Assembly (NCBI GenBank): GCA_021927905.1
Contig: BLLK01000038.1
Location: forward strand, 1,550,001 to 1,614,000
Direction of reading: 5' to 3'
Origin: Chaetoceros tenuissimus
Lineage: Eukaryota; Bacillariophyta; Thalassiosirophyceae; Chaetocerotales; Chaetocerotaceae
Length of the DNA: 64,000 nt
Shown here one piece after another: positions 4,683 through 37,423 of this stretch. The notes under the pieces are model-generated. The model had not been told where the DNA came from, made no database searches, and saw nothing but the letters and a program-made list of their open reading frames with translations. A program made the position numbers and the translations under genes. Position 1 is the first letter of the stretch. Each line of letters begins with the position of its first letter.

Positions 4683-7547
4683 TTAATACATCCACGGCTT
4701 ATCATCCAATAAGACTACTTCGGGAAGTACATCCGCTGGAGGTACTCCCAACATATTCAGCTCTTCGTTGCAGTTGAAAAAGTAAGAAGGATCAGGATAT
4801 CCATGCTTTGCAGTACCGCCAGTCAAGGATGTTTTATGATGAATAGAAGCCCATATGCATTGATTATCGAGTCTTGTGGTCATGGATGTCCCTACAGTAA
4901 ATGTAAGTCCGTGTTCAAAGGCATACCTTAGTCGTTTGAGAAGATTCTTTCCATCGTCGTTGTTGGGTAAGTAAGCTTTTACATTCTTACTTGAATGTCT
5001 CACATTGGGATAAGGATGATATGGCTTTTGCATTGCGGCGTAGATTTGATAGTGAATTTGTATTGTGTCTTCATCATAACCGGAACATTTTTTAGGAATG
5101 ACTGCAAGACACATTCTTCCGCTAGGCGATTTGCCTTGGGGTTCTTTCACCCATGTTTGGCAAGTAGGACAGCGAGGAGATGATTCTATAGACTTTTGAA
5201 TGCAATCTTGGTGAAATATGTGAACACAACTGCAAGAAAGCGATCGCAAAGTATGGGCGGTTGGTCCAAGCTCCTCAAAACAGATTGGGCACTCTTGTTT
5301 CTGATCATACTTGCATTGTGGGATGTTCCCCATGGAATTTATAACAATGTCTCCAAGATTGTTCGGGGCATTGTAATTGTGGACCAGTGGGCTGGTACGA
5401 GATAAATCATTTCTCAATATGCGATCATAACATACACTTCTCAAAACTGGGTTATACTTTTCATCCGATTCCACCACTGATTCAGTACCTGCTGGAGTAG
5501 ATCCGACATTGAGATGTGCATCCATCATATCTTGCAGCGACTTTTGAATGTAACCTATGCATTCTTCACCGAAGATGTCGCTACAAGGATTGTCAAATAT
5601 GACGACGGGTAAACATTGCGCAGGATCTTGTAGAATGATCTCATCATTGTAGTCATCCACTGGCCATTGACTGTTAACTCGCGCTTTATTACCAATAACA
5701 GTGTTGAAACTTTCTCTTGGAATCAATGCTGCAGGGTAGCATTGATCAATAACGAACCCTTCAACATCATACAGATCAATAGAGTAACTTTTTTTGCCTT
5801 GTAGCCGTAATAGAATAAGTCCAACGCTTTTGCTATTGGTAGCAAAAGCGTTTGTGTAGTTTCCAGTATATACACCAGGACCGAAGAATCCACGCTCACT
5901 ACGTTTCAAACCGTTAGTTCGAATTGATGCTGCAAATTCTGGCTTTGTGTAATGATAACCAGTGTCGACGAAAGAAGAGATATTGAGGGCTTTGAAGTTA
6001 TGTTGCTGATTCAAAAAACTTATCATAGACTGTATCAATTCATCAGATGAAGTAATGTCAACATGTTTAGCGAATGAGGGGTACTTTTCTCGCGCTTCAT
6101 GAATAATTTTGGCGCAACCAGCAACCATCGAGGTTGCTACAGCAGAAAGCATATCTTGGCAAGCTTTCCCATCATTAGAAGTCTCTAACTGAGAAAAGGT
6201 TTGGAGGGCATTACTAGAATCCACGTCCTTGTTTGGTGTAAAAGATTCAGCGGCGCTTACACTGATGGGTAAAACATGATTACTCTCAGCAACATAGAAA
6301 AAAGGAAAATCATCTATGGAATCGGATGCGTTTTGCATTGGATCAGGTTTAGGTCTATATGGCCCAATGTATTCACGAGTATTTCCATGGGAAATAGTTC
6401 CATCAATCTTCTTTTCGGATATCAGTGCCAACACCAGTTTCTCTACTTTCCCTTCATCTAGCCTATTCAATTTCTCTGAAAGTGCGCTAAATGATATAGT
6501 TCCCCTCAATGGAAGTTCGTTTAGAAGCACATTTTTTCGTAGTGCGGTATGCACCCTTCCAAAATACTTTTTCAGTGCTTTGTCTTTTTCATCGTTGAAT
6601 AGGTTGTCCTCAAACCCTACAATATCATTTTTTTGAAACAAACTGAAGAGATTTTTCAGTGTCAAAACCTCTGGATAGTCATTTTTCGAAAGTCGAACAC
6701 CTCTGGCTGCATCATTATTAAAAGGGCTAAGCATTCTGACAATGAAAAGCCATTTGAGACTTCGAAGCTCGGCATTACTCCCCATAGCAGAAAATACTCG
6801 AAGAGCGGAAAGGAATGATTCGTATGCCTTATTGTAACACTTTGACATGCTACTCATATATGCTTCACCAGCAGCTTCATGGATTCTCCCTTGTGTAAAG
6901 GGAGCAACAATGGACCTGTAGAATTGACCTTTTATTTTCTCATATTTTTTAATCAAATTGCGATTATCACCTGTCAAGGAGTAAAGATGAATCTTTACTA
7001 ATTCTGCCTGTACTTGATCTTCTGTAGATATCATACCCGAATCATTCCCATCTTGACTAATATAATACGGAGCAAGTTTTTGTATCATGATTTCCAGTTC
7101 TCGTATGTGCTTGGTTTCAAAAAGTATTTCACTATATTTGATTTGTGCTATGAACCATAACCGTTGATTTCGACAAGTTGGCTTCCCTCTGAAAGGATGG
7201 AAAGTATCTATTGTCTTTATGTACAATCTTTTTGCAAAATTTATATGTGGACAATTTGTATCCCAAACATTCTTTTTCTGTAGCGTCGATGATGTCTCTT
7301 CTAGAATCTTCTCTACATAGTTCTGAATTTTTATCATGGGAGTAAGCGGATGTTCGAGCAAATCAAAGAGCTTATGCTCCATATCAATGAGATTCTGAAA
7401 TTGCCTCTCGGTATCTTTGCTTGATTCTAAGCCATTGTGCAAACTCTCATATTCCGTGGGAACAGAAGAAGTTACTTGTTCACAAGAAATAGGTGACGTT
7501 TCATCATCACCTAAAGAAGACACTAGGCCATGGAGGAGTTCTTCCAT
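4683..7547 (-). CDS. Array gene A: CSN2-like/ART/RING/Deltex fusion
   Basis: A 954-residue protein, predicted E3 ubiquitin ligase with an ADP-ribosyltransferase (ART) module. In order: a CSN2-like helical and PCI winged-helix region (about 50-400) that lacks the first helices (no YYxAKALK or KSLKQ motif); an ART domain with His532 in HYT, FGPGVYTG, and DEIILQ supplying the putative catalytic Glu; a RING-H2 finger starting at Cys753 (CPIC...CPTC); then a Deltex C-terminal domain from about 804 to 943 with FTVGTSMTT, SIHHKT and HGYPDP. The start is the ATG at 7547. It is single-exon, 464 bp from gene B and in the same direction. Family knowledge: RING-DTC pairs in Deltex proteins transfer ubiquitin and bind ADP-ribose or NAD+. 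Substrate is unknown. The frame is intact. Confidence 0.85.
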   Translation of the reverse strand: MEELLHGLVSSLGDDETSPISCEQVTSSVPTEYESLHNGLESSKDTERQFQNLIDMEHKLFDLLEHPLTPMIKIQNYVEKILEETSSTLQKKNVWDTNCPHINFAKRLYIKTIDTFHPFRGKPTCRNQRLWFIAQIKYSEILFETKHIRELEIMIQKLAPYYISQDGNDSGMISTEDQVQAELVKIHLYSLTGDNRNLIKKYEKIKGQFYRSIVAPFTQGRIHEAAGEAYMSSMSKCYNKAYESFLSALRVFSAMGSNAELRSLKWLFIVRMLSPFNNDAARGVRLSKNDYPEVLTLKNLFSLFQKNDIVGFEDNLFNDEKDKALKKYFGRVHTALRKNVLLNELPLRGTISFSALSEKLNRLDEGKVEKLVLALISEKKIDGTISHGNTREYIGPYRPKPDPMQNASDSIDDFPFFYVAESNHVLPISVSAAESFTPNKDVDSSNALQTFSQLETSNDGKACQDMLSAVATSMVAGCAKIIHEAREKYPSFAKHVDITSSDELIQSMISFLNQQHNFKALNISSFVDTGYHYTKPEFAASIRTNGLKRSERGFFGPGVYTGNYTNAFATNSKSVGLILLRLQGKKSYSIDLYDVEGFVIDQCYPAALIPRESFNTVIGNKARVNSQWPVDDYNDEIILQDPAQCLPVVIFDNPCSDIFGEECIGYIQKSLQDMMDAHLNVGSTPAGTESVVESDEKYNPVLRSVCYDRILRNDLSRTSPLVHNYNAPNNLGDIVINSMGNIPQCKYDQKQECPICFEELGPTAHTLRSLSCSCVHIFHQDCIQKSIESSPRCPTCQTWVKEPQGKSPSGRMCLAVIPKKCSGYDEDTIQIHYQIYAAMQKPYHPYPNVRHSSKNVKAYLPNNDDGKNLLKRLRYAFEHGLTFTVGTSMTTRLDNQCIWASIHHKTSLTGGTAKHGYPDPSYFFNCNEELNMLGVPPADVLPEVVLLDDKPWMY

Positions 7548-8011: not shown

Positions 8012-10972
8012 TTAAAAGTTGAAGTCGTAGGGGAGATCATCTGCTGGAGGAACTCCCAATCTATCAAGCTCATCGTTGCAGTTGAAAAAGTAAGAAGGAT
8101 CCGGATATCCATGTTTCGCGGTTCCGCCATCCAATGAGGTCTTGTGATGAATAGAAGCCCATGAACACTGATTCTTGTGTCCAGTGGTTATGGATGTCCC
8201 AACAGTAAAGGTAAGTCCATGCTCGAAAGCATACTTCAATCGCTTGAGTAGCTTCTTTCCTTCAGCATTGTTTGGAAGGTATGCCTTGACATTCTTTCCA
8301 TCGTGATGAACATTTGGATTGGGATGATACGGTTTTTGTATCCCAGCGTTCATCCGGTAGTGTATGACAATTGTGTTCACTGTATAACCCGAGCATCTGG
8401 ATTCATGAATGAATATGTACATTTTTCCACTAGGTGATTTTCCTTGAGGTTCTTTCACCCACTTTCGACAACGAGGACAGCAAGGTGAATGTTCGAGAGA
8501 GCTTTGGATACATTCTTCATGATAGATGTGACTGCAAGAAAGAGATCGCAAGGTATGAGAGTCTGATCCTAGTTCTTGCAAGCAAATTGCACATTCAAGA
8601 GATTCATCATACTTGAATTTGGGGATGTACAAAGCAACAACTCCCATACGATATGGAGCAAAGTAATGATATAGTAGATGTTCCGAACATCTATCAACAT
8701 TATCCTTTTTCTTGCGATCACGAATCTTTGAGAAAATTGAAAATGGCAAACATCTTTGGATTTCAACCATATGTTGACTTTCGGGAACATTGAGGGAATT
8801 ATCCATCAAATCTTGCAAAGAGTGTTGAATATACTCTATACATTCTGTACCAGTAGCATTACCAAGTGGAGCGTCAAAGATGACAATAGGAACACACTGG
8901 GCAGGAGTTTGGATTACAAACTCAGTATGCATATCATGAATGTCTCCAAAAGGATCACCTCTATTCTTATTGCCAATGATCGTGTCGAAGATTCTGTTCT
9001 TATCCTTCCTTTCGCCAAATCTACCTTTTTCACCTTGCAATCTGAGCAAAATCAGTCCGACATTCTTGGATTTAGAAGCAAAGGCCGTCGGATTACTAGC
9101 GGTGTACACGCCTGGGCCAAAGACGCCCCTTTCACTGCATCTCAAACCAGTCCTTCGAATTGATGATACACATTCTGGCTTTGTATAGTGATAACCAATA
9201 TCAATTAAAGAAAAGACTTTTCTTTTCTTGAATTCCTGGTGCTTGCTCAAGAACGTCTCAAGTAATTGATCCAAATTGTCCACCGAAGTAATATCAACAT
9301 GTCTTGCGAATAAAGGATATCTTTCTCGTGCTTCTATGATAAGCTTGATAGCACTCTGTTTTAGGGAAAATATTTGGTAATTAAAGCTTCGCCTATCAAG
9401 CGTTTCCTCCGTTAAGTCACAATCAACGCTACTACGATGGCATATTTGAATTTCATGATCGCTTTTTGCGATATGAGAATGAAACTGACCATGGCTTAGA
9501 GATAACTGCACAGGATTTGAGAAGAAAAAGTTTGAGGAGTAAGGAGGTAGAGGCTTTGGCACAGGCTTTTGTACAAAATTCAATTTTGGCCTTGCTGGAT
9601 TGGGGACTGTTGATATGATTGAGTGATTCTGCTGAAGACACCGAGACCCAACATATTCATTAGTTATCAAGTCAATCTTCCCTCTAACCCTAGAATCAAA
9701 TATCATGGTGTTTATCATGGCTATCACTGCTGACTCTTCCAACCCATTCAATTTATTGGATAGTGTTGTTATCGACACTGTTGAATTAAATGGCAGCTGT
9801 TTGAAAAGAATATTCTCTCTCAATTTCTCTTGTATCTGGAGAAGATATTTTTCAATTGCTGTTTCGTTCACCAAGTTGAAACTTAAATCGAAGGCCGCCA
9901 TATGTTCTCTTTTGAAAGAATCAAATAACTGAACCAAATTCGAGATTTGTGGCTCATCTTTTGGAAGTTTTAGATGTTGTTTTCTATCTTTTTCAAGTGG
10001 ACTTTTGTGTGATCCCTCCAGCATTTTAATCACAAAGAGAAATTTGAGACATCGAATATCATCACTACTACCACAAATCCTGTATTGTTCCAAGGCCGAT
10101 AAAAATGCAGCATAAGGTTTATGATAATTAAGAGGAGTGTCCAAATAGATTTCGCCTGCAGTCTCATGAACTCTGGCAAGCGTAAAAGGTTCTAGGCCGC
10201 CCCACAATTTACAAGTTTTCATGCTTTCATAACTACTAATTGCGAATCTTGAAGTTTCCTTTTTCAAGAAATACAGTTGCATCTTCAGAATTTCGGCATG
10301 CAGTTGGTCTTCCGACGAATGTTTATTTTCCTTGAAGTAATATTGAGCAAGCCTTGGTATAATAGCTTCTAAGCCTTGAACTTCTTTGAGTTCAAAGAGT
10401 ACTTCACCAAGCTTTAGTTGCGACTTGAACCATAGTTTTTGGTTTCTGCATTGTGTGTTTCCAGTAACAGGATGAAAGGTTTCTATAGAAACCTCGTAAA
10501 CTCTGTATGCAAATGCTTTGATTACGGATGATTTCCCTCTTAACTCACCATTTCCAATATATAGAGATGAAATACATTCAAAAATCTGCTCAATACTCCT
10601 CTCTAAGGTTGCTTTTGGAATTTCTTCTAGAAGGGGACTCGCCAGTGAAAATAAAAGTCTTGAATACAGAACATATGCAGGAGTAAAGTCTCTCATAGTC
10701 AACCTCAGTTTGATCATTTGTTTCAAACTCTTCAAGAACCATATTCCTTTAACAGACGCATACTGGTATTTGGTATGATTTCCAACAAACCTCAAAACTT
10801 CTAAATAGACATTCTCGAGAACCATCACCTCTTCAAATTTCATCATGGCCTCATCTGGTCTCAAAGATTTTGCCGAGGTATACAACTTTTCTATTTCCAG
10901 TGGAATAGATCCTGCACGATCTATTACATTAGAAAAGAACAAAGAAACAACATCTTTTTGCGCTGTACTCAT
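8012..10972 (-). CDS. Array gene B: CSN2-like/ART/RING/Deltex fusion
   Basis: A 986-residue protein when read from the ATG at 10972; the frame stays open 16 codons upstream but only to a TTG. It has a CSN2-like region from the N-terminus (LKSLKQMIKLRL near residue 90, KLWFKSQLKLGEVLF, then a PCI winged helix around 380-450), followed by a proline-rich linker. The ART domain has His595 (HYT), GPGVYTAS and a TEFVIQ catalytic-Glu segment, and carries a shortened insert between the second and third motifs. RING starts at Cys794 (CAIC...CPRC). The DTC domain is about 844-980 with SWASIHHKT and HGYPDP. It is divergent from gene C across 292 bp, so the two may share a promoter. Predicted ADP-ribose-linked E3 ligase; substrate unknown. 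Confidence 0.85.
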   Translation of the reverse strand: MSTAQKDVVSLFFSNVIDRAGSIPLEIEKLYTSAKSLRPDEAMMKFEEVMVLENVYLEVLRFVGNHTKYQYASVKGIWFLKSLKQMIKLRLTMRDFTPAYVLYSRLLFSLASPLLEEIPKATLERSIEQIFECISSLYIGNGELRGKSSVIKAFAYRVYEVSIETFHPVTGNTQCRNQKLWFKSQLKLGEVLFELKEVQGLEAIIPRLAQYYFKENKHSSEDQLHAEILKMQLYFLKKETSRFAISSYESMKTCKLWGGLEPFTLARVHETAGEIYLDTPLNYHKPYAAFLSALEQYRICGSSDDIRCLKFLFVIKMLEGSHKSPLEKDRKQHLKLPKDEPQISNLVQLFDSFKREHMAAFDLSFNLVNETAIEKYLLQIQEKLRENILFKQLPFNSTVSITTLSNKLNGLEESAVIAMINTMIFDSRVRGKIDLITNEYVGSRCLQQNHSIISTVPNPARPKLNFVQKPVPKPLPPYSSNFFFSNPVQLSLSHGQFHSHIAKSDHEIQICHRSSVDCDLTEETLDRRSFNYQIFSLKQSAIKLIIEARERYPLFARHVDITSVDNLDQLLETFLSKHQEFKKRKVFSLIDIGYHYTKPECVSSIRRTGLRCSERGVFGPGVYTASNPTAFASKSKNVGLILLRLQGEKGRFGERKDKNRIFDTIIGNKNRGDPFGDIHDMHTEFVIQTPAQCVPIVIFDAPLGNATGTECIEYIQHSLQDLMDNSLNVPESQHMVEIQRCLPFSIFSKIRDRKKKDNVDRCSEHLLYHYFAPYRMGVVALYIPKFKYDESLECAICLQELGSDSHTLRSLSCSHIYHEECIQSSLEHSPCCPRCRKWVKEPQGKSPSGKMYIFIHESRCSGYTVNTIVIHYRMNAGIQKPYHPNPNVHHDGKNVKAYLPNNAEGKKLLKRLKYAFEHGLTFTVGTSITTGHKNQCSWASIHHKTSLDGGTAKHGYPDPSYFFNCNDELDRLGVPPADDLPYDFNF

Positions 10973-11264
10973 GTTCCTTGAAATTATATGATAGGGTGAA
11001 GTATAATTTGTATTTGCCAATTAGTTCTTTTGTGATCATGGATATGGATCTATGAGAAGAGGTGCTCCGATAGGCCATTCCATTGATGTCAAAGTCCTTT
11101 AACGGTAATTTTAACCGTCACAGGGCACTCATCCATGACCACAACAAGGCAGAACACCAAGGAACAATTGTAATTGCAGCATTACATATGACATATGAAC
11201 TTTCGATGCATATCGGCATCTAGTTATAATTACTGTTACTCAATATCTCCATTCAAGAATAATA
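10973..11264. promoter_or_regulatory. Divergent promoter region of genes B and C
   Basis: Only 292 bp separate the two starts, so regulatory sites for both must lie here. Visible is an inverted pair ACGGT-n7-ACCGT near 11104-11120 (the right arm extends to AACCGTC, a Myb-like core) and a tandem ACATATG pair near 11184-11197. No TATA box stands out. Co-regulation is inference. Confidence 0.4.
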
Positions 11265-14207
11265 ATGCAAACTATAGTATCAGCATTAGATACATCAGAG
11301 GAAATTGAATCTTCCCGCGAGGACGACGTGTATACTTATGAATATTCTGATGATGATGACGACCCTTTTGAGAAAAGATATTATGATGCAAAAGCCCTCA
11401 AAGGTTTACATCCAAATAGAGCCATGGAGAACTTTCAATCTCTGATTGATACAGAGCTTTGCAATTCATCCATTGTCTTGTTGAAATTTAAAAGTATGAA
11501 GCAAATGACTAAACTGAAGTTGCGAGAGAGAGACTATAGTAGTGTCTTCGATTTGTACAAGAGACTCCTTGAATACATCTGCACTAACACATCCTCTAAT
11601 TCGCTTGATGATAACTATGCTAGCAATAGTATTGAAAAAATGCTCAACCGCATATTTGCAGTTCAAGACAGTGGAAAAGAATCATATATTTCTTTTGCGC
11701 ATCAGATCTACAACGAGACCTTTGGAGCCTTCAATACCATAAGAAATAGAAAGCCATGTAAGCCAAATGAAAGACTATGGATCAAGGTAACTATCCAATA
11801 CAGCTATATTCTATACACTTCCAAGGAAGAAGATAAACTTGCGACTTTAGTACGCGAGCTCTCCCAGTTCTTGAAGAATAATTTGAGGCTGTCCCTATCT
11901 ATTACGAATTATAATCTACATCCAAAAACGCTAATAGATGTTCTGGAAATTCAACTTTGTCTCTTACAGAAAGATGAGTCTTCTCTAAAGAGAATATATG
12001 AGCTAAATGAAATTACTCTTGGGTGCTTGTTGTCAGATTATCAATGTGAATTGGGTTTAATTCATCAAAATGCCGGTGAAATATACATGAAATCTTCAAC
12101 TGCTCCAGATTATGACAAAGCCTACAGCTCATTTTCAGAAGCATGCAAATGTTACAGGAGTGCTTGCGACCTCTCTGCCCGTGTTAGATGCCTTAAGATG
12201 CTCTATATCATTAAAATGCTTCAAGGCTCATCTTCGGGACCTCAAGAAATCAGTCTGGAAGATATTCGTCCCTCAGACTTTCTTCCCACGTTAGTCAAAA
12301 TTTTTGACGCTTTTCAAAGAGAAGATATACAACAAGTTGAGAAACTCATCGCTGGAATTGATGAGAAAAGTGTTGAGAAGGAGTTCTTAGCCAAAGTGCG
12401 TCTATGTCTACAAAAGAAAATCCTTCTAAAGGAACTACCAGAAACTTCAAAAGTTCATTTTTGGACTTTATATAAGAAACTGAATCATTTGCCCTACAGT
12501 AAGATCATCGATCTCATAAACATCATGAAAGTAGAGAAGAAACTAAAGGGACAAGTAATAGGGAATCAGTATGTTGGATCCCAGTTTCAGCCTTCGCAAA
12601 TTCCAGCTCAGTCGACCTCGCAAGGAATCATTGGTTCTAGTTTCGTCGCTGAAAATAATCAAATCTGCAAGAAGTTGATACTGAAGAGTACCAATGGTGA
12701 AACTATTACAACTGAAAGTGCGGTTGCCAAATCTCCTTCTGATTTTTTTGATTGGCCAAACCCCGATGAAGACTGCATTGTTGATATAGCATCTACGCTG
12801 ACTAAAGGTATTACCAATATTATCCTAGAAGCTCGTGCAAAGTACCCTTCATTTGCTCAACATATTGATATTACATCCTTTGATTTTGATGAGTTGGGTC
12901 AACAATTGATTAGATTCCTAAACCAACAAGTAGAGTTCAAGGCTCGTAATGTTTCTTCTTTCATCGACAGTGGTATCCATTATACAAAGCAATTGTATGC
13001 AGCATCTATTCGAAGTACTGGTTTACGATGCAGTGTGAGTGGTAGATTTGGCCCAGGTATATACACCGGCAACAATTGTAAAGCGTTTGCTGGTCGTTAT
13101 GGAAATGTTGGATTGATTCTGCTGCGACTACAAGGCAAGACTGGTATGGTGGATAGGCGCAGATTTAGAAGGGGGAACGATAGTTATCAAAACATTGACA
13201 CAGTCATAGGTAATGCTCGGACCCGAAACTTGAATCCTCACTCTACGCCACAAGCAAAAAACTTGTATGAAGAGGTAATTCTTCAGTCTACATCACAATG
13301 TGTACCTGTAATCATCTTTGATACACCTCTTGGAAATACAGAAGGGGAGAAATGTATTGAATATCTACAAGAGTCTTTGCAAAATACGGTGGACTCCTTC
13401 CTCAATGTAGGATCTACTCCAGCTGGTTATGGCGAGGTGATTCAGTCATCTCAAAGCACTGATGAATTCGGGCAAAGGGTGCTCAAACGTCAACGAAGTT
13501 TGTATCATGGCAGACAACAACACTTAATCAATTACAATGCACCGAATGATCTCACAGATATTGTTGGAAAATCAATGATGGATATCCCTCAATTTAAATA
13601 CGACTACAAGCACAAGTGTCCGATTTGCCTAGACGAGCTTGGATCCAACCCAAATGTGTTACGTTCTTTGTCTTGTAGTATTCATATCTTTCACCATGAC
13701 TGCATCCGGAAGTCTCTAGAGGTGTCTCCGCGCTGTCCCATGTGTAAGAAATGGGTCAAAGAGCCTCAAGGGATGTCTCCAAGTGGAACAATGCGTATCA
13801 CAATCATCCCAGACAAGTGCTCCGGTTACCTTGAAGATACCATTGTCATTTATTACCAAATCAAAGGTGCGATTCAAAAGTCATATCATTCCAACCCTGA
13901 TGTCCTACATTCTGGAAAGAATACACCGGCCTATCTGCCCAACAATGACGACGGTAAAAAGCTACTCAAGCGATTGAAGTACGCATTCGAGCATGGACTT
14001 ACTTTCACGGTTGGAACATCTTTGACCACTGGACTCCATGATCAATGCACATGGGCATCAATACATCACAAGACATCCTTGTCGGGTGGTACAGGAAGAC
14101 ATGGGTATCCTGATGTCTCCTACTTTCTGAATTGCAATGAAGAGCTGGATGGGTTGGGGGTACCACCGGCTGATGATCTTCCCAATGACATCGATTTTAT
14201 AAGTTAG
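11265..14207 (+). CDS. Array gene C: CSN2-like/ART/RING/Deltex fusion (clearest member)
   Basis: A 980-residue protein from ATG 11265, intronless. Residues 1-35 are acidic. Residues 36-438 align by eye with COP9 signalosome subunit 2: YYDAKALK, KFKSMKQMTKLKL, RLYKRLLEYI-like spacing, DVLEIQLCLLQK, DKAYSSFSEACKCY, RCLKMLYIIKML, then the PCI winged helix ending GQVIGNQYVG. The ART domain has His572, Tyr600 and Glu670; Gln678 lies eight residues after the Glu, as in PARP1. The RING ligands are Cys785, 788, 804, His807, His810, Cys813, 824 and 827. The DTC domain (about 835-972) has His934-His935, His946 and Glu960, with the same spacing as I recall for human DTX2 His582, His594 and Glu608. Predicted NAD+-using E3 ligase, cytosolic or nuclear. 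Confidence 0.88.
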   Translation: MQTIVSALDTSEEIESSREDDVYTYEYSDDDDDPFEKRYYDAKALKGLHPNRAMENFQSLIDTELCNSSIVLLKFKSMKQMTKLKLRERDYSSVFDLYKRLLEYICTNTSSNSLDDNYASNSIEKMLNRIFAVQDSGKESYISFAHQIYNETFGAFNTIRNRKPCKPNERLWIKVTIQYSYILYTSKEEDKLATLVRELSQFLKNNLRLSLSITNYNLHPKTLIDVLEIQLCLLQKDESSLKRIYELNEITLGCLLSDYQCELGLIHQNAGEIYMKSSTAPDYDKAYSSFSEACKCYRSACDLSARVRCLKMLYIIKMLQGSSSGPQEISLEDIRPSDFLPTLVKIFDAFQREDIQQVEKLIAGIDEKSVEKEFLAKVRLCLQKKILLKELPETSKVHFWTLYKKLNHLPYSKIIDLINIMKVEKKLKGQVIGNQYVGSQFQPSQIPAQSTSQGIIGSSFVAENNQICKKLILKSTNGETITTESAVAKSPSDFFDWPNPDEDCIVDIASTLTKGITNIILEARAKYPSFAQHIDITSFDFDELGQQLIRFLNQQVEFKARNVSSFIDSGIHYTKQLYAASIRSTGLRCSVSGRFGPGIYTGNNCKAFAGRYGNVGLILLRLQGKTGMVDRRRFRRGNDSYQNIDTVIGNARTRNLNPHSTPQAKNLYEEVILQSTSQCVPVIIFDTPLGNTEGEKCIEYLQESLQNTVDSFLNVGSTPAGYGEVIQSSQSTDEFGQRVLKRQRSLYHGRQQHLINYNAPNDLTDIVGKSMMDIPQFKYDYKHKCPICLDELGSNPNVLRSLSCSIHIFHHDCIRKSLEVSPRCPMCKKWVKEPQGMSPSGTMRITIIPDKCSGYLEDTIVIYYQIKGAIQKSYHSNPDVLHSGKNTPAYLPNNDDGKKLLKRLKYAFEHGLTFTVGTSLTTGLHDQCTWASIHHKTSLSGGTGRHGYPDVSYFLNCNEELDGLGVPPADDLPNDIDFIS

Positions 14208-25498: not shown

Positions 25499-27545
25499 AT
25501 GAAGATGAATTTCTTTCGACACTTGTTGAAAACAAAGATACGCAAGAAAGAGGACTCTAAGCTGAATTCGAAGAAAAACAAAGTCCTGTGGTACCATGGA
25601 AACAAAACACTATAGTACAAAGCGATCACAAAATACAGTCTTTTTCTTCGAAGACTCAAAGATGAAGAGAGCCTTGAGGGTTTGGTGCAGGAGCTCTCCA
25701 CATACTTCGGCAACAAAAGTAAAGATTATCTCTCTCATTTCGTCGCCGAGAACGAAATGACTCCTCACGTTCTATTTAATATTGTAGAGATGCAACTTTC
25801 TATCCTGAGAAATGACACTACATCATTCCTCCATATATATGAGGAAAAGAAGATTGAACTTGGTTGTATTTTGTCAGAGTCAATGTATGATATGGGGTCG
25901 ATCCATCAGCATGCTGCGGAACTATACATGACCTCTTCCACTTACGACAAAGCCTGTAGCTCTTTGATCGAAGCTTGCATATGTTGGAAGAAAACAAATG
26001 ACTCCCATGCTCATGTACATTGTGTGAAGTTACTCTATATTGTCAAAATGCTTCTTGGCTCAGCTTCCATACTTGGAGAAGATATCCTTGGAGATGTTTC
26101 ACCTTCGGAATCTCTTCCTGCCATAGCAAAAGTCTTTGAAGCTTTTAGATCTAATAATATTGAAGTCCTCGAGAAATACATGAATGAAGTTGATGAAGAT
26201 TGTGTCGTTATAAAGGAAGGCATTGTCAAGATTCATAGAAAGTTGCAGAAGAGAATTCTGCTGAAGGAACTACCAGAGACGTCGAGAGTTAAGTTATCAG
26301 CATTGTCTTCCAAGCTGAATGATCTAGGATTACCTTCTGTGACTTCTTTGGTAATGAGCTTGATATGTGAGAAGAAGCTTCAAGGTCGATTGACATTTGA
26401 GGAATATATCGGATCACAGTTTGTATCTGTTTCTAATAATTCCTTGAGCTACTGCCGTGATATTTTTTGCAAATACGTATCAAATCAAACAAGTCCATCT
26501 CACGTCGCTGATGGCACACATGTCAATTCCCTCGGTCAAAGTATTGGGGAAAAGATTGAAGTTGTCGCATCTAGCAAGGGATCATCATCTACATTTTCTT
26601 TGAAATTTTGTCAATGGCCTGGACGTGATGTGACTAATGATTGCAAAGCATCCTTGCTAGCGCATGGGGTTGCCAATATTGTCCAAGAAGCTCGTACAAA
26701 GTATCCTTCCTTTGCAAGGCATATTGATATTACTTCCTTTGATTTTGATGAGTTGGGCATGCTTCTCTATAGATTCTTGAAAAAGAAGCAAGAATTTGAG
26801 ATTGACAATGTTCCCTCCTTCATTGACATTGGTTATCACTACACACTGCCAGCATATGCAGCATCCATCCGAAGTTCTGGGTTGCGATGCAGTAACAAGG
26901 CACCTTCGGTCCAGGCGTGTACACCGCTGATAATCCCACCGTGTTTGCTTGTGACTACGGCAATGTTGGTCTCATTGTACTAAGATTGCAAGGCAAAACA
27001 ACTTCCACTGTAATTGATAAATATGGAATGAGTCACTGGGAAGATGGTGTCAACACAGTCCTTGGTAACAAGAATCAAAATAGAGGTGACCATTACAAAG
27101 AAGTAGTGCTTCAATCTTCATCGCAGTGTGTACCAATCATCATATTTGATGCGCCTATCGGTAATAAAATAGGTAAAGAGTGCATAGACTAAATGCGTAA
27201 GTCATTAGAAACAATGCTTAAAAATTTCCTTGACCAAAAAGAAACCAGTCGAACACAAAGGCAATATGATAGTCAAGAGCCATTATTGTCCATGTGCAAC
27301 GCCCCAGATCATCTTATAGAGATGAGTAATACCTCAATGAATGAAATTGGACCTTCATGCAAATACAACTACAAGCACAAATGTCCCATATGCTTAGACA
27401 AGCTTGGATGGAATCCTTATATCTTACGATCTTTGCCTTGTACTTGTGTGCATATCTTTCATCAAGAATGTATTCAAAAGTCTCTTGAAATGTATCCTCG
27501 CTGTCCTACATGTAAAAAATGGGTCAAAGAACCTCAAGGTAAGTC

Positions 27546-28378
27546 TACCTCCAGCACAACGGCGGTTAACCGTTAGGACTTCCTTCAAAAATCGGTAAAA
27601 AAGAGACCCCCTCTGTGCCACTCATTTTCAGGGATTTTTGTGTGAACAAAGAAAAAATTACACGACACCACTTAGTGAATTATATGCCTATGTGAAGTGG
27701 ATCTAGTGCAAAAAATAAAAGGTTTGTTAGAGAACAAATACTGTACATCATTTCAATACACATTCAACAATTAGGTTCCGGCGTTTGTTCCCTAGCAAAC
27801 CCTTTTCTTGATGTAGAAAGAGACCATGGAATATACCCCTTTTTTCAGTATTCATCATTGACTTAACCCAAGCCTAACGCACATGCAACAAACTCAAAAC
27901 ATCTTTACAAAGTGCAGTAGACATATATAATGAAGAGAGTAAAGAAAAGCTGCTCTAGTTTGTATTTCACAAGCTGAGAGCTTGTCTTATGGTAAAAGAA
28001 GCTAGCTACACATGACCTCTAGTGCTACGGATGTGCTTGGAATGAGATAGATATATTTTCTTAATGAATTCGAAGAATTTGTTTCGATTAAGTGTGACAA
28101 TTTGTGAGAAAAAAATGAATGAATACAACCTAATGAGAAATATTCAATATGTAAAGTAAGAAAGTGAAAAACTATTCAAAAGAAAATGAAATCTGAAAGA
28201 AACTTGTGTATTTATGTACGTAGAAGTGTACTTAGAAACTAAGTTGAAACATATCAAGTACGTACACACGAGATCCACAGAGAAACTCTCTTTTTGTGGG
28301 ATTAAATGGTCATTACTTAAGCCTTTTGGTAATTTGATGGGAATCAAATTACGGTTACTGGTCGTGGTGCTGGAGGTA
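27546..28378. mobile_element. Non-autonomous TIR element (MITE-like) in copy F
   Basis: An 833-bp insertion that begins TACCTCCAGCAC and ends GTGCTGGAGGTA; the inverted ends extend imperfectly to about 26 bp (left ...GGTTAACCG, right CGGTTACTGG...). It is flanked by AAGTC at 27541-27545 and 28379-28383, a 5-bp target duplication (6 bp if the boundary shifts by one). Removing it restores the GGTAAGTCTCCGAG codons of the paralogues. No transposase frame is present. The superfamily is not recognised. Confidence 0.8.
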
Positions 28379-28435
28379 AAGTCTCCGAGTGGGACGTATC
28401 ACAGTCATCCCAGACAAGTGCTCAGGCTACTCCGA

Positions 28436-29013
28436 GAATACACCAATGGCCTAGGAATTCGGATTTGTAGAAGAGCTGGTATGATTTGTGTAGAAATTGA
28501 ACGTAAAGGTCATTTTAGGCCATTTTTGAAAATTTTGTCCTTCATGTATTTATTTAGCTCGTATACCGTCTAGTATGTGCCTACGCTCAAAAAGAGATTA
28601 TCCGGTAAATGCCTAGGAATCAAAAATCCCAGGGCGATTCCTAAAATTTAGGAATCGCCTCTATAGCCAATCGAAATATACGGCTATAGAGGGTGATTCC
28701 TAAGGAATCACCCTCTATAGCCGTATATTTCGAACAGATAGTCGTATATTTTTTCACAAAATCATATATTTTGAGTTAATTAGAGTAAAATTTGTATTTT
28801 TGATATATGACCTCGTTTACATTTATATTTTTCTAGGGTCTGTTTCCATTGGTGTATTCCCGCGGAAAACCTCTCGGTATGTGTGGCCAGGAATTTCTCT
28901 CGTTGCACTCGAGAAATTCCTTCGGGAATCCAAGAAATCCCGCTCGTTTCACTCGGGGGATTTCTTGTCGATTCCCGGGGTCCGCCACACATACCTCGAG
29001 TATTTCCTTTAAA
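28436..29013. mobile_element. Composite palindromic/foldback insertion in copy F
   Basis: It interrupts the DTC codons between CTCCGA and AAGATACAATTG. The left part (28436-28859) is bounded by 14-bp inverted ends, GAATACACCAATGG and CCATTGGTGTATTC. The right part (about 28862-29011) is a foldback with outer arms around GGTATGTGTGGC / GCCACACATACC and two inner hairpins. No coding frame. Probably two small elements, one beside or inside the other; no clean target duplication was found. Confidence 0.65.
28672..28732. repeat. 61-bp near-perfect palindrome
   Basis: The arms at 28672-28701 and 28703-28732 are exact 30-base reverse complements around a single central A (core GATTCCTAAGGAATC). A second perfect hairpin, GGCGATTCCTA-n5-TAGGAATCGCC, lies at 28633-28659 and shares the GATTCCTA core. 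Both are within the insertion in copy F. Confidence 0.9.
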
Positions 29014-29378
29014 GATACAATTGTCATCCACTACCAAATTCATAGTGGCTTTCAAAAGTCATATCACCCTAATCCCGATGTCCTACATTCTGGAAAGAAT
29101 ACAACTGCCTACCTACCCAACAATGACGATGGTAAAAAGCTTCTCAAGAGTATGCATTTGAGCATGGACTTACCTTTACGGTTGGGACATCCATGGCCAC
29201 TGGTCTACATGATCAGTGTACATGGGCATCAATACATCACAAGACATCCTTGACAGGTGGTACAGGAAGACATGGGTATCCCGATGCATCGTATTTTCTG
29301 AATTGCAATGAAGAGCTTGATGGGTTGGGAGTACCTCCAGCTGATGAAATTCAAAGTCATATCAATCTTAGTAGCTGA

Positions 29379-30840
29379 TCATCTTCCGATTTAGTCGGAT
29401 AATAATTGTAGTAATGTGTCTTTTGAGTAGAATGGATACAGATTGACAAAGGAATCGACTCATACAACAGATATATTTTGTGTATGTCCTTGTTCCCCAG
29501 CTGAAGGTATTTAGTCACAAGCTAGGTGTGCAACCATCTCTTCTACTACCATATTTTCATGTTTTTATAATTAATTATAATGACATTACGAACTACAATA
29601 CAATTATTTATCAGAGGTGCTAGAATATCCGAAAGGAAATAGAAATACAATAGAAGTCAAAAGGACTTCCACGATGATTAGACTCCACATATTGAACAAG
29701 AAGATATTCCTTTTTCTATAATATTTTTAATGTCAATAGGATAAAGAATAGAAACCCTTTTCGAACTATGTAGAAACAAGCGATGAAGAATTTTCGACAC
29801 TGCTCTATCCAATGACATGAAATACCAAACACGACTGACTCAATTGACAGTACTTTTGACATTATTTATTTGCCCGACATTGGCAGAGAAACAGCAAAAG
29901 CCAACAACAACAGTTTTGTGGTGGAAGAGAAAGCATCAGAGCATCACTATATCTATTGCTACTGCAATATTGAATTTTTACTTAAACCGCTATCGCTTGC
30001 TTAAACCAGAAAACTGACTTCACTACTACAGAGAAAATACAACGACCAGCACGATGCTATGGAATAGTTTTTGATTGAATACTCAGTCAATTGGTCCGTA
30101 CACTATGTTGAAATGTTGAAATTTATAACAGCTTGAAGCAACTGGCTCACGGAGTGAGAATACTCTGGAGCTACAACTCTGTTTCAGCACCTTTTTCACT
30201 ACGTATATATGAACAAATCATAAATGAGGTTCTGAAAATTTTGGCAAAGAATGACCATATCATTTCATCAATCCCCTCACATGAAAAAAAGTCGAGAGGC
30301 CGGGCAGCCACATGAGTTGTGCGCGAATAGACTGTATCTATGTTACATCCATTGCCATCGAAAAAATATCGTCCCTATGAGAAGCTATGGTTTAGGGCAC
30401 ATCTGATCCTGACCCATACTTTTTTCATAAATTGCAACCAGGAGCTAGCTCAACGGGTTGGGTGTACCATTGCTGATCTTCCCAAAGGATTCCTTATATA
30501 TTCAAATATATTCAAGACAAAGCAACACAATAAAGGAGAGGAAAAGGATTTAGGCGTCAATAGATTGTCACATATTTGCGTGGAAAAATCTATTGAACAT
30601 TTGTCTTGCTTCGTCACCTTTTCAGGTCATGCATATGGTGACACGTATCTATCCATGATTTAGCTGAGATCAAATTGGAACAACTACTGAGAAAAGGAAA
30701 AGATACTGAAATTGAACTATTATCATAAAATATCTTTGAGTAATATCCAATAGAAAAATACTGGATTGTATACATTTGGACAAGGTCAAATTTCCTTTCA
30801 AGATTCACAATAAGGCAACTTTACTTTGAAAAAGGAAAAG
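29379..30840. other. Intergenic between copies F and G, holding an eroded array relic
   Basis: No intact gene. 29837-29851 carries GACTCAATTGACAGT followed by TTGCCCGACATTGG, similar to 24882 onward and to the RAD54 upstream region. The stretch 30130-30490 is the relic listed separately. The remainder is AT-rich and featureless. Confidence 0.5.
30130..30492 (+). pseudogene. Heavily deleted relic of an array gene
   Basis: At 30130 the DNA reads AGCTTGAAGCAACTG, then GAGAATAC, TGGAGCT and CAACTCTGTT, the same order as the start of the CSN2-like region in gene H (34787-34850). Further on the codons give PYEKLWFRAHLILTH (compare KLWLHAHVKYSH) and, after a large deletion, INCNQELAQRVG followed by ADLP, matching the end of the DTC domain (NCNEELDGLGVPPAD). 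ART, RING and most of DTC are missing. An old ninth copy. Confidence 0.6.
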
Positions 30841-33800
30841 ATGAATGTTTTTAACTTTGAGGATGATGAAGGAATTAATGGTGTCGAAGATGATACATTG
30901 GAGGAGTTTTACAACAAAGCTAACGATATTAAGGACATATCTCCAGATGCTGCCATGGAGCAATTTGAATTTCTAATGGGAATGTTGGAACAGGCCGACG
31001 CTGCGAGTTCTACATGGATAATGAAGCTCCAAACCTTGAAAACCTTGAAACTCAATAGCTTCAAACACTTGGTCAAGCTGAAAATAGAGCATAACGACTA
31101 CCTTGCAGCTGCTACCATATACAAGCAGCTTCTAAGATGTGCGACTAGTTGCGTCAGTCTGGGCAAATTTGTTTCGGATGATGCATTCATTGATAGTGCA
31201 TTCAGTTTAATTGAAGAGATTCTCCACCATATCTTTCTTGTAATGCCTTTCCTTCAAGATGATACCATTGAAACCGACATGCTACTAGATCTTGCACAAT
31301 TTGTGCATACGGAGACTGTTCAAATATTTAATCCTTTTGAACAAGGAGCTGCCAATTGTCAAAATAAAACTCTATGGTACAAAGCGATCACAAAATACAG
31401 TCTTTTTCTTCGAAGACTCAAAGATGAAGAGAGCCTTGAGGGTTTGGTGCAGGAGCTCTCCACATACTTCGGCAACAAAAGTAAAGATTATCTCTCTCAT
31501 TTCGTCGCCGAGAACGAAATGACTCCTCACGTTCTATTTAATATTGTAGAGATGCAACTTTCTATCCTGAGAAATGACACTACATCATTCCTCCATATAT
31601 ATGAGGAAAAGAAGATTGAACTTGGTTGTATTTTGTCAGAGTCAATGTATGATATGGGGTCGATCCATCAGCATGCTGCGGAACTATACATGACCTCTTC
31701 CACTTACGACAAAGCCTGTAGCTCTTTGATCGAAGCTTGCAAATGTTGGAAGAAAACAAATGACTCCCATGCTCATGTACATTGTGTGAAGATACTCTAT
31801 ATTGTCAAAATGCTTCTTGGCTCAGCTTCCATACTTGGAGAAGATATCCTTGGAGATGTTTCACCTTCGGAATCTCTTCCTGCCATAGCAAAAGTCTTTG
31901 AAGCTTTTCGATCTAACAATATTGAAGTCTTCGAGAAATATATGAATGAAGTTGATAAAGATTGTGTCGTTATAAAGGAAGGCATTGTCAAGATTCATAG
32001 AAAGTTGCAGAAGAGAATTCTGCTGAAGGAACTACCAGAGACGTCGAGAGTTCAATTTTCAGATTTGTCGGGCGAACTGAATGATCTAGCATTGACTTCT
32101 GTTACTTCGTTGGTTTGGGAATTAATAGCTGAGAAAAAACTTCGAGGACAGGTCATCAATGATGAGTATCTGGGATCGTCTGTTGTAGAGATGCAGAAGA
32201 AACTTCTGTTGAAGGAACTACCAGAGATGTCGAGAGTTAAGTTATCAAATTTGTCTTCCAAACTGAATGGTCTAGGGTTACCTTCCGTTACTTCGTGGGT
32301 AATGAGCTTAATATGCGAGAAGAAGCTTCAAGGTCGATTGACATTTGAGGAATATATCGGGTCACAATTTGTGCCTGAATATATAAACTCTTGGGGAGAT
32401 CAGCATAGGGGTTTGAACAATGAAATAAGTCCATCTTACGTTGCTGATAGCAATCATATTCTTTTCCACAGTCAAAGTATTGGGGAAAAGATTGAAGTTG
32501 TTGCTTCTATCAATGGATCACCAACTGTATATTCTTTAGAATATTGCCAATGGCCAGGGCACGATGTGACTAGTAATTGTAAGGCATCCTTACTAGCACA
32601 TAGTATTGCTGATATCATCTATGAAGCTCGAACAAAGTATCCTTCCTTCGCAAGGCATATTGATATTACTTCCTTTGATTTTGATGAGTTGGGTAAGCTA
32701 TTGATCAATCTTGTCGAAAAGCAGAGGGAATTCAGTAGTCGAGGCATTCCTAGTTCAATTGATATTGGTCATCACTACACAAAGCCAGCATGTGCAGCAT
32801 CAATTTGAAGCACTGGTTTGAGACGTAGCAAATCGGGGACCTTTGGTTCAGGCGTGTACACTGCTAATAATCCAACAGCCTTTGCTTGTGATCAGAAGAG
32901 TGTTGGTCTCATTGTATTTAGGTTACAGGGCGAGGCAAGTTCCACTAGTTTTGATACTTATTCGTATGGACATGGCTATTGCCAAAAATTTGTCAATACA
33001 GTCTGTGGTAACAAGAGTCCAGCTTTTGGTGATTACTACAAAGAAGTGGTTCTTCAATCTTCATCACAATGTGTTCCAATCATCATTTTTGATTCGCCTC
33101 TTGGTAACAATCTCGGTAAAAATTGTTTGGATCATATGCATAAATTATTGGAAAGGATGACGCAAGATATCTTAAACATAGGCTACACTTCTGCGACTAG
33201 AGAAATGATTCACTCGTATCCATACAATACCACATTGTCCACACAAAAGCAATCTAGAGATATGTTTCAGATGTATCGATACAAAAATATATTCCCTACA
33301 CCAAAGCAGTGTAATAGTAAAAAAAAATATCATGCGAGTTTGTCGCCCCAGATAACCTTGCAGATACCACCACCATGGATGGAATTTTTGACATACCTCA
33401 ATGTAAATACGACTACAAGCACGTGTGCCCGATTTGCCTTGACGAGCTTGGATCCGACCCAAATGTATTGCGTTCTTTGTCATGTAATTGTGTCCATATC
33501 TTTCATCAGAAGTGTATTCAAAAGTCTCTTGAATCGTCACCTCGCTGTCCTACATGTAAAAGTTGGATCAAAGAACCTCAAGGCAAGTCTCCGAGTGGAA
33601 CAATGTGCATTACAATCATCCCAGACAAGTGCTCAGGCTACTCCGAAGATACCATTGTCATCCAGTATCAAATATATAGCGGCTATCAAAAGCTATATCA
33701 TTCTAATCCATATGCTTATCATGATGGTAAGGATGTCAAGGCCTACCTACCCAACAATGACAATGGTAAAAAGCTACTCAAGCGATTGAAGTATGCATTT

Positions 33801-34001
33801 GAGCATGGACTTACCTTTACGGTTGGGACATCCATGACCACTGGTCTACATAATCAGTGCACATGGGCATCAATTCATCACAAGACATCCTTGACGGGTG
33901 GTACTGCGAATCATGGATATCCTGATGAATCCTATTTTCTGAATTGCAATGAGGAGCTGGATGGGTTGGGAGTACCTCCAGCCAATGATATCCGTCTCTA
34001 G
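30841..34001 (+). pseudogene. Array copy G: near-complete, two lesions, duplicated winged helix
   Basis: From ATG 30841 the first part reads through a full CSN2-like region (SFKHLVKLKI, TLWYKAITKYSLFLRR, DKACSSLIEACKCW) and then two tandem winged helices (about 32020-32180 and 32195-32375), unlike any other copy. The ART domain is interrupted at 32806-32808 (CGA to TGA in SIRSTGL) just after the HYT motif. The frame then continues with GSGVYTA, in which one Gly-Pro-Gly residue has changed, and YKEVVLQSS. A frameshift near the A9 run at about 33320-33330 separates it from an intact RING (CPICLDELG...CPTC) and DTC ending at 34001. Either a young pseudogene or, less likely, an assembly error at the homopolymer. 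Confidence 0.75.
32020..32375 (+). repeat. Tandem duplication of the PCI winged-helix segment in copy G
   Basis: Two units each begin LLKELPE[TM]SRV and end in EYLGSS or EYIGSQF. The first resembles the winged helix of D and H (GQVINDEYLG); the second resembles E and F (QGRLTFEEYIG). The mixture suggests unequal crossing-over between subfamilies rather than simple slippage. Confidence 0.75.
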
Positions 34002-34606: not shown

Positions 34607-37423
34607 ATGAATGAATACACATACGAAACGAATGATTTATTAGATGCACTAGAAAAAGTATATTACGAAGCAAAAGCTTTGAAGAATAAGAATCGGTACC
34701 AGGAGGCTATTGGCCAGTTTAAACTTCTGATTGAAATTGATCAATGTTATTCAACAGTTTCTATTTCTATCGTAAAATTTAAAAGCTTGAAGCAACTGAT
34801 CAAAATGAAGATAAACCAGGGAGAATACCATGGAGCTGCAACTCTGTTCCGACAGCTTCTTGATGACATTTCTACAAACAATGTATGGAATCCTGACTAT
34901 ACTATCAGCAGTATAGAGAAGATGCTAGACCGTATCTTTTCATTAGCGCCTTCCCATCAAGGAGATTTAAATGAGAAAAAGCAAATCCTTACTTTTGCAA
35001 GGAATATCCATGAGAAGGCTATCAACATGTTTCATCCATTTGGCCAAAGTGAAAGATGCTGTCCTAATGGGAAACTTTGGCTTCATGCACATGTCAAGTA
35101 TAGTCATTTCCTGTTTAGACTCGAAGAGGAACAAAGACTAAAAGAGCTGGAGGATGCAATCGCTTTATCCATTTCCCGTACATCTTTTGGTGTGCTTGTT
35201 TATTTCATGGAGACCTTGCTCTTGCGCTTGCATAAAGAAGAAACATTGTTATGCACTGATTCCTATCAGCAGAAGAAGATCGTATCATTCGTCCAGATAT
35301 ATGAGGAAAAGAAGATTGAACTTTCTCGCATTTTGTCCAACTTTATGCATGAAATGGGGTCGGTCCATCAACACGCTGGTGAACTATACATGACCTCGTC
35401 CAATTACGACAAAGCCCATAGCTCTTTGATTGAAGCTTGCATATGTTGGAAGCAAACAAGTGACTACCATGCTCACGTATATTGTGTGAAGTTACTCTAT
35501 ACTGTCAAAATGCTTCAAGGCTCAGCTTACATAATTGGAGAAGATGTCCTTCGAGATATTTCACCTTCGGAAGCATATGCAATAGCAACAGTGTTTGATG
35601 CTTTTCGATCTAACAATATTGAAGTCTTCGAGAAGTATATGGAGGAAATTGATGACGAGTGTGTCGTCATGAAGGAAGGCATTCTTAAGATTCATAGAGA
35701 GTTGCAGAAAAGAATTCTGCTAAAGGAACTACGAGAGACGTCAAGATTTCAGTTATCAGATTTGTCTTCCAAACTGAATGGTCTAGGTTTGACTTCCGTT
35801 ACTTCGTTGGTAATGGGTTTGATAGCCGAGAAAAAACTTCGAGGACAAGTCAGATATAGTTATTATGAGGGATCGTTATGCCCTTATTGTCATGTCGCCG
35901 AAAGCATTCATGTCGCACCCGTTTTTTCTAGCATCCAAACACAACCTTCAAGACACATCACAGAATCTTCTGCTTCCAATGATGACGAATCTCAAGCCAA
36001 TATTCAAGTAAAAAATGTTACTCGATGGCCAAACCCCGATGAAGACTATATTGTTGATGTAGCATCTTTACTGGTTGAAGCCATCGTCAATAATATCCAA
36101 AGGGCTCGTACAAAGTATCCTCACTTCGCAAGACATATTGACGTCACTTCCCTTGATTTTGATGAGTTGGGCCAACAATTGATTAGATTTTTGCATCAAC
36201 ACGCAGAGTTCAAGGCTCGCAATGTTTCTTCCTTCATTGACATTGGTTATCACTATACAAAGCCCTCATGTGCAGGGTCTATTCGAAGTACTGGTTTAAA
36301 ATGTAGTGTGCAGGGTACCTTTGGCCCAGGTATATACACTGGTAATAATTGTAAAGCGTTTGCTAATAGAGGGAGTGTTGGTCTTATTGTATTAAGATTA
36401 CAGGGCAAGACAACGTCTACTGTTTTTGACGCATACAGCTATCCATACGGAGAAGGACACATGGAAAAAAGTTTCAATACAGTCCTTGGTAACCAGCATC
36501 AACATAAAGGAGATCATTACAAAGAAGTGGTTCTTCAATCTTCATCACAGTGTGTACCTATAATAATATTTGATGCGCCTTGTAGTAACCCTTTCGATGG
36601 ACGGTGTTTAAACTACATACATAAATCATTGCAACGCATGATAGACGGATTTTTGAACACGGGCTCGGTTCTTACTGGTCCCAATGCAGGCATAACAGAA
36701 TATCTGAACAATCTCCCAACTGCAAAAACGATTAGATTTGAAAAGTATATACTCTACACGTACACCGCTCCATATCATCTTGTAGATGGTGCCTTTATGC
36801 ACAAATTAGGCAGCATACCTCTATGGAGATACGACTTCAAGCAAGACTGTCCAATATGCCTTGGAGAACTAGGATCGAATCCTTACATCTTGCGATCTTT
36901 GCATTGTGCTTGTGTGCACATCTCTCATCAAGGGTGTATTCAAAAGTCTCTAGAAATGTATCCTCGCTGTCCTACATGTAAAAAATGGGTCAAAGAGCCT
37001 CAAGGCAACTCCCCAAGTGGAACCATGTGCATTTCAATCATCCCAGACAAGTGCTCAGGCTACTCCGTAGATACTATTGTCATCCATTATCAAATGGATA
37101 GCGGCTATCAAAAGTCATATCACCCTAATCCAAATGCATATCACGATGGCAATGATGTCAAGGCCTACCTACCCAACAATGATGATGGTATGAAGCTACT
37201 GAAGAGATTGAAATATGCCTTTGAGCATGGCCTCATTTTCACGGTTGGGACTTCCATGACAACAGGACGCAAGAATCAGTGCACATGGGCTTCTATTCAC
37301 CACAAAACATCCTTGTCAGGTGGTACATTTGGTCATGGGTATCCCGATGTATCTTATTTCATGAATTGCAATGATGAGCTGGATGGGTTGGGAGTACCTC
37401 CAGCCGATGACATCCGTCTCTAG
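34607..37423 (+). CDS. Array gene H: CSN2-like/ART/RING/Deltex fusion
   Basis: A 938-residue intact protein from ATG 34607. The CSN2-like region starts almost at once (YYEAKALK near residue 19; KSLKQLIKMKI; KLWLHAHVKYSHFLF; KAHSSLIEACICW) and ends in a winged helix (GQVRYSYYEGS) around 430. The ART domain has His549 (HYT), GPGIYTGNN and YKEVVLQSS. RING starts at Cys748; the central ligands read CACVHISHQGC, so the spacing is kept. The DTC domain is about 798-935 with FTVGTSMTT, SIHHKT and HGYPDV. It is closest to D in sequence and promoter but has lost the myristoylated N-terminal extension. Last member of the array, 693 bp upstream of RAD54. Confidence 0.86.
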   Translation: MNEYTYETNDLLDALEKVYYEAKALKNKNRYQEAIGQFKLLIEIDQCYSTVSISIVKFKSLKQLIKMKINQGEYHGAATLFRQLLDDISTNNVWNPDYTISSIEKMLDRIFSLAPSHQGDLNEKKQILTFARNIHEKAINMFHPFGQSERCCPNGKLWLHAHVKYSHFLFRLEEEQRLKELEDAIALSISRTSFGVLVYFMETLLLRLHKEETLLCTDSYQQKKIVSFVQIYEEKKIELSRILSNFMHEMGSVHQHAGELYMTSSNYDKAHSSLIEACICWKQTSDYHAHVYCVKLLYTVKMLQGSAYIIGEDVLRDISPSEAYAIATVFDAFRSNNIEVFEKYMEEIDDECVVMKEGILKIHRELQKRILLKELRETSRFQLSDLSSKLNGLGLTSVTSLVMGLIAEKKLRGQVRYSYYEGSLCPYCHVAESIHVAPVFSSIQTQPSRHITESSASNDDESQANIQVKNVTRWPNPDEDYIVDVASLLVEAIVNNIQRARTKYPHFARHIDVTSLDFDELGQQLIRFLHQHAEFKARNVSSFIDIGYHYTKPSCAGSIRSTGLKCSVQGTFGPGIYTGNNCKAFANRGSVGLIVLRLQGKTTSTVFDAYSYPYGEGHMEKSFNTVLGNQHQHKGDHYKEVVLQSSSQCVPIIIFDAPCSNPFDGRCLNYIHKSLQRMIDGFLNTGSVLTGPNAGITEYLNNLPTAKTIRFEKYILYTYTAPYHLVDGAFMHKLGSIPLWRYDFKQDCPICLGELGSNPYILRSLHCACVHISHQGCIQKSLEMYPRCPTCKKWVKEPQGNSPSGTMCISIIPDKCSGYSVDTIVIHYQMDSGYQKSYHPNPNAYHDGNDVKAYLPNNDDGMKLLKRLKYAFEHGLIFTVGTSMTTGRKNQCTWASIHHKTSLSGGTFGHGYPDVSYFMNCNDELDGLGVPPADDIRL

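Follow-up and report, generated by a model that had tools for sequence, protein, structure and literature searches.

A tandem diatom gene family that joins a CSN2-like arm and a PARP-like module to a Deltex RING-DTC module

Could a single protein chain mark a target with both ADP-ribose and ubiquitin? The question is raised by a gene array of the diatom Chaetoceros tenuissimus, found in a 64,000-nucleotide stretch of contig BLLK01000038.1 (G000:C27:1550001-1614000 of the 41.03-Mb assembly GCA_021927905.1), hereafter the window. Five open reading frames, A, B, C, D and H (954, 1002, 980, 1054 and 938 codons, respectively), share a common order of CSN2-like arm, ADP-ribosyltransferase (ART)-like module, RING and DTC domain (Table 1, where B and D are counted from their first ATG). 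An earlier note, made from the letters of the window alone, had listed five intact genes with these four modules in one order; this was borne out for all five by the frames and by domain mapping, and its four domain calls (CSN2, PARP-type ART, RING and DTC) were right. The architecture is real, repeated and unusual and, as judged from sequence, is a variant of the Deltex kind. We consider it rather probable that these diatom genes form a tandem family of Deltex-type E3 ligases evolving by birth and death, each intact chain of which would be a self-contained ADP-ribose-ubiquitin writer.

All five proteins score over the Pfam cut-off for DTC (E-values 1.7e-37 to 1.2e-41) and for RING_2 (1.5e-6 to 1.3e-10), with the RING directly before the DTC, in agreement with the DTC call that the earlier note had proposed to check by profile. 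Given these E-values, an architecture shared by five genes is far beyond chance. In DTX2 the key residues are reported to be H582 and E608, with H594 serving ADP-ribose binding (available passages of PMC7615817 and PMC11460948). The gene C equivalents are H934, H946 and E960, and all three positions are kept in each of the five window genes; across 37 proteins, window genes included, H582 is conserved in 37, H594 in 35 and E608 in 35. The RING-DTC arrangement and the His-Glu pair thus point to Deltex family membership of the five genes, with ubiquitylation of ADP-ribose as the predicted activity.

The ART module of gene C carries a putative catalytic triad of H572, Y600 and E670. This H-Y-E triad is present in all five window genes, while among the 37 aligned proteins H and Y are invariant and E is found in 27. 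Structure prediction was made for gene C alone among the window genes, and all Foldseek rows shown for its ART module are PARPs. HHalign comparison of the ART profile with PARP brings the H, Y and E of PARPs into register. The Pfam PARP model (PF00644, cut-off 26.7 bits) gives sub-threshold scores of 13.5 and 11.8 bits in the relatives P0014 and P0017. Together this suggests a divergent PARP-like enzyme in diatoms that is invisible to PF00644. Diatoms were once listed as PARP-free on the basis of two genomes (PMC2964712, in the part available); against that listing, C. tenuissimus has two genes over the PF00644 cut-off besides the array ART (L001 and L002). One looks WGR-bearing by eye, and the other, with PF06839, lies on the array contig and is 100% identical to CTEN210_06360.

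Profile comparison of the arm gives 2e-55 against CSN2 and 1e-9 against RPN6, indicating homology to CSN2 rather than RPN6, and seven arms of fused proteins nest within the CSN2s in an arm tree that included no RPN6 row. The predicted fold of the gene C arm also matches CSN2, the PCI region being covered; hence residues 36-438 of gene C, whose comparison with CSN2 the earlier note had set as a refuting test, match by both sequence and fold. The Pfam PCI model is over cut-off only in A among the window genes (24 vs 22 bits) and in the relative P0011; it is below cut-off in B and H, and gives no match in C or D. The C-terminal bundle helix, by which CSN2 is anchored in the signalosome, was not found: the profile match stops at human residue 414 (6r6h_B), and residues 445-500 of gene C are predicted as low-confidence coil with no helix, although some gene C fold rows extend to 425-443, through the low-confidence stretch.

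The contacts by which CSN2 engages its partners are retained unevenly in this arm. The RBX1-contact residue, reported as I291 (PMC12848000, in the part available), is present in all seven compared CSN2 rows, in none of the five window genes and in one of the seven fused arms (P0011). Of its neighbours in the contact loop, N292 and D295 are kept in 0/7 fused arms, F294 in 1/7, P293 in 5/7 and S289 in 6/7. Available passages of PMC8080631 and PMC6722667 describe a link of CSN2 K70 with inositol hexakisphosphate (IP6) and one of the acidic tail with the basic canyon of the cullin. An equivalent of K70 is found in six of the seven fused arms and in four of the five window genes, having been lost from gene A, where the front of the arm is degenerate. 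K73, Q74 and K77 are likewise kept in 6/7, their role in the patch being assumed, as those passages name K70 only. Retention of this patch is not clearly above the background of the segment, where 15 to 19 of 25 invariant sites are kept in B, C, D and H. An acidic N-terminal tail occurs in C, D, P0007 and P0011, the E260 equivalent is kept in 4/7 fused arms, and that of E298 is D in 5/7. The earlier suggestion that the enzymes are placed by a signalosome-like scaffold is therefore half upheld: the K70 equivalent speaks for it, but the loss of I291 and the end of the match before the C-terminal helix do not.

To place the array among its relatives, the gene C protein was used as a search query. 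Among the 40 matches listed, at least 29 relatives have an ART-RING-DTC core, the named ones coming from Thalassiosira, Skeletonema, Fistulifera and C. tenuissimus itself; 25 of the 29 were taken into the alignment, and none of these has a CSN2 arm. The fused form is seen outside the window, among the same matches, in P0007 (75% over the best stretch), in P0011 (44%) and in part in P0012, a 596-residue piece that begins in the PCI region and therefore does not show the arm. Fused cores form one branch of the core tree (100/99), within which P0007 pairs with C (100/98) and P0012 with B (100/100); the B/C duplication therefore predates the split from the sources of those sequences. P0007 is 75-84% identical to gene C in the arm and 64-68% in the ART. 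As far as searched, the CSN2 addition occurs only in the array and on two or three related contigs, and no description of the fused architecture was found among the papers listed in the literature search, closed-licence papers lying outside its scope. The earlier note knew of no described protein with this combination: within these limits that rarity holds for the CSN2 addition, but not for the ART-RING-DTC core. Another relative, the MMETSP transcript P0043, reads RING-DTC-TAZ-PARP, with PF00644 at 36.8 bits, over the cut-off. P0027 is a WGR-WWE-RING-DTC protein, i.e. a Deltex protein without ART; the WGR domain is otherwise familiar from PARPs.

A whole-genome tblastn search, in which counts are lower bounds, returned at least 22 matches, with arm-bearing copies in the array only. 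The matches outside the array comprise a true CSN2 gene, a pair of Deltex genes that lack the arm and two weak RING matches. The protein CTEN210_09807 matches a Deltex gene outside the array. The single true CSN2 gene is located on the same contig, about 210 kb beyond the array.

Divergence within the array is strongly modular. Arm identity is 22-40% in nine of the ten gene pairs (64% for D-H), compared with 70-87% for the DTC in all ten, and the linkers are looser still than the arm. The ratio of nonsynonymous to synonymous substitution rates (dN/dS) was taken from D-H, the only pair unsaturated throughout. It was found to be 0.80 (0.47-1.54) and 0.54 (0.34-0.91) for the two arm halves, 0.32 (0.17-0.54) for the PCI part, 0.33 (0.23-0.50) for the ART and 0.13 (0.07-0.22) for the DTC. 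The enzyme modules are held and the arm front is loose, and the D-H intervals do not show positive selection.

The proposal of a family of self-contained writers draws on this architecture and its repetition, the intact catalytic residues, the fold matches of gene C, the single branch formed by the fused proteins in both trees and the low dN/dS of the D-H enzyme modules. In the Chaetoceros lineage, an ancestral ART-RING-DTC gene, of the kind found in several diatoms, would have gained a CSN2 copy at its front, after which the fusion would have multiplied in place. In an active chain, the PARP-like ART would add ADP-ribose to a target, or to its own chain, and the RING would recruit a ubiquitin-loaded conjugating enzyme (E2). 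The DTC His-Glu pair would activate the ribose 3' hydroxyl, such that ubiquitin is joined to ADP-ribose in cis, with the CSN2-derived arm presumably selecting the target. As the two catalytic sets are intact, the earlier suggestion that each chain could set both marks unaided is plausible. Searches of the genome also gave four cullin matches (one short), an inositol pentakisphosphate (IP5) 2-kinase and two macrodomain matches, besides the two ordinary PARP genes; a setting for such a system is therefore present. PF03747 hydrolases were not found in these searches.

Several results weigh against this proposal, most of them concerning the ART. In 10 of the 37 modules its E column lacks an E. The Foldseek TM-scores are low (0.34 by query length for the top row), and the reverse HHalign comparison, PARP against ART, aligns 39 columns only, without the E, at a probability of 93%. 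Pfam PARP is unlisted in all five window genes even at an E-value of 5, and an ART profile built from 21 of the 37 modules matches no PARP in the PDB at E-values up to 10. The same profile matches DarT (8e-4 over 36 residues), plus seven weaker unrelated rows. The identification of gene C residues 505-715 as PARP, a further test set by the earlier note, is thus backed by fold and by profile-profile comparison but not by the Pfam PARP model. Elsewhere in the proteins, P0011 has D at the E608 position, and the window genes keep only 36 to 49 of 109 CSN2-invariant sites; the arm may therefore no longer bind the partners of CSN2. Finally, three of the eight copies are broken.

Those broken copies might be taken to mean that the array is decaying without function, or that its products are catalytically dead scaffolds, and the poor conservation of the arm is consistent with either. 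We consider this very unlikely, as the tested catalytic residues are kept in all five open genes, the D-H dN/dS is low in ART and DTC, and relatives of B and C have been retained in other contigs. The DarT match raises a different option: nucleic acid, not protein, would be the substrate of the ART, and the chain would build ubiquitin-ADP-ribose at the ends of DNA or RNA. DarT, a DNA ADP-ribosyltransferase, is the only significant PDB sequence match of the ART profile, and DTX enzymes are reported to ubiquitylate ADP-ribosylated nucleic acids (PMC10810221, in the part available). However, that match spans only the His strand and the next helix, while the fold rows shown and the HHalign register both point to PARPs, and we regard a nucleic-acid target as highly improbable.

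Three further readings concern the arm or the setting of the array; they are compatible with self-contained writers, and their odds need not sum to one. The arm could still dock cullin-RING ligases, its IP6 patch gripping the cullin C-terminal domain; ADP-ribose and ubiquitin would then be placed on cullins, RBX1 or their clients, or the COP9 signalosome would be kept off. The K70 patch, the acidic tails, the E260 and E298 positions and the genomic IP5 2-kinase and cullins would fit such docking, but with I291 and several of its loop neighbours mostly lost and patch retention not clearly above background we find it doubtful. Alternatively, the arm might be a decoy for a virus or parasite factor that attacks CSN2 or cullins, the enzyme half being the response. 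An arms race of this kind would suit eight copies in tandem, three of them broken, and the divergence and higher dN/dS of the arm relative to the DTC. The human PARP14, DTX3L and PARP9 genes are reported to share a locus and to be interferon-induced and fast-evolving (PMC12687431), and a known virus lyses C. tenuissimus (PMC8613185), both sources being available in part. Yet the D-H arm intervals do not show positive selection, the C arm is well conserved in P0007, and the main text of the virus-response paper mentions neither deltex, ubiquitin nor COP9; overall, we think a decoy unlikely. A role in gamete formation or fertilisation, where fast paralogue change is also common, can be put forward too, though we hold it to be doubtful. 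Deltex-family members are reported as up-regulated during sexual reproduction in all four diatom species studied (PMC12618581), and a Deltex transcript is described in Ectocarpus gametes (PMC3879662), in the parts available; these statements cover the Deltex family at large, however, and not the fused genes. It would be bolder, and we hold it to be improbable, to combine these into a one-chain ADP-ribosyl-ubiquitin writer aimed at cullin/NEDD8 by a captured CSN2 arm and diversified as an antiviral arms-race or mating-related locus, an independent counterpart of mammalian PARP14/PARP9/DTX3L.

Table 1. Open genes and damaged copies of the array (window coordinates).
Feature	Position	Strand	CSN2-like	ART	RING	DTC	Remarks
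Gene A	4683..7547	-	6363-7493	5505-6149	5157-5294	4743-5135	954 residues
Gene B	8012..10972	-	9647-10897	8786-9385	8465-8596	8051-8443	986 residues from ATG at 10972
Gene C	11265..14207	+	11364-12578	12777-13409	13614-13748	13770-14162	980 residues
Gene D	14845..17949	+	15049-16305	16501-17106	17290-17427	17449-17841	1034 residues from ATG at 14845
Damaged copy E	20242..22148	+					most of the CSN2 arm (front) missing; frame change about 21330
Damaged copy F	25571..29369	+					stops 25613 and 27190; frame changes; dispersed repeats about 27571-29007
Damaged copy G	30829..34001	+					stop 32806; frame change about 33280; three stops 33312-33320
Gene H	34607..37423	+	34649-35872	36050-36661	36845-36982	37004-37396	938 residues

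The earlier note had counted four or more damaged copies; both the window and the whole genome, searched by tblastn, yield three, E, F and G, and F becomes two only if its two sides are counted apart. F is interrupted by a dispersed-repeat match of about 1.4 kb, which falls between positions 845 and 856 of gene C. This insert consists of two different repeats with a short DTC-like piece between them, one having nine near-equal copies (81-84% identity), the other 95-96% identity in contigs C13 and C16; both are present at many other genome sites. The gene D N-terminus (14845-14880, + strand) reads MGANESK. Its resemblance to an N-myristoylation signal suggests that the gene D product may be at a membrane.

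Within the array, a 357-residue frame at 23135-24208 (-) has a weak, sub-threshold similarity to DUF6824, and an open reading frame at 18017-19441 (-) has a sub-threshold GDSL lipase match and belongs to a genomic set of at least six related frames, of which two contain one TAA each. A 1242-residue frame at 246-3974 (-) has no Pfam match at E-values up to 0.1. Three adjoining frames at 38117-42126 (+), with SNF2 helicase, bromodomain and sub-threshold RanBP zinc finger matches, may be fragments of a single gene.

The hybrid mark ADP-ribosyl-ubiquitin was described only recently, and in the human systems covered by the sources available in part, PARP and Deltex ligase reside on separate chains. 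A natural chain with both enzymes, its tested catalytic residues intact, would offer a minimal system for the questions of cis action and target. Capture of CSN2 would be a new way of aiming a Deltex-type ligase, and the divergent ART sits in the very ligase family reported to rise in diatom sex.

Human PARP9-DTX3L, with PARP14, resembles the array in that a PARP-type domain and a Deltex RING-DTC ligase couple ADP-ribose and ubiquitin; it differs in having separate chains and no CSN2 part, and PARP9 is reported to be inactive by itself (PMC11460948, in the part available). Fungal Clade 6A PARPs with an E2-like UBCc domain and the Dictyostelium U-box-macro-PARP DDB0232928 do unite a PARP with a ubiquitin-enzyme domain in a single chain, but use other ubiquitin domains, with no DTC or CSN2 described in the available part of PMC2964712. 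P0043 likewise holds a Deltex-type RING-DTC and a PARP in one chain; there the PARP follows the DTC, a TAZ finger separates the two and CSN2 is absent, making it a second, differently ordered joining. The diatom ART-RING-DTC proteins, e.g. CTEN210_09807, have the same modules and order, the same H and Y and mostly the E, and lack the arm in those aligned; the front of CTEN210_09807 shows a sub-threshold RanBP zinc finger. DTX1, DTX2 and DTX4 share the RING-DTC with its catalytic His-Glu pair, and carry WWE domains at their front; Pfam lists no WWE domain in the window genes. CSN2 itself is homologous to the arm over the front 400 residues, with a fold predicted to be shared by gene C and the K70 equivalent mostly kept, but in the array genes I291 is lost, and a linker and enzymes stand where the bundle helix was not found. 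The true C. tenuissimus CSN2 gene, moreover, has an intron where the array frames run on.
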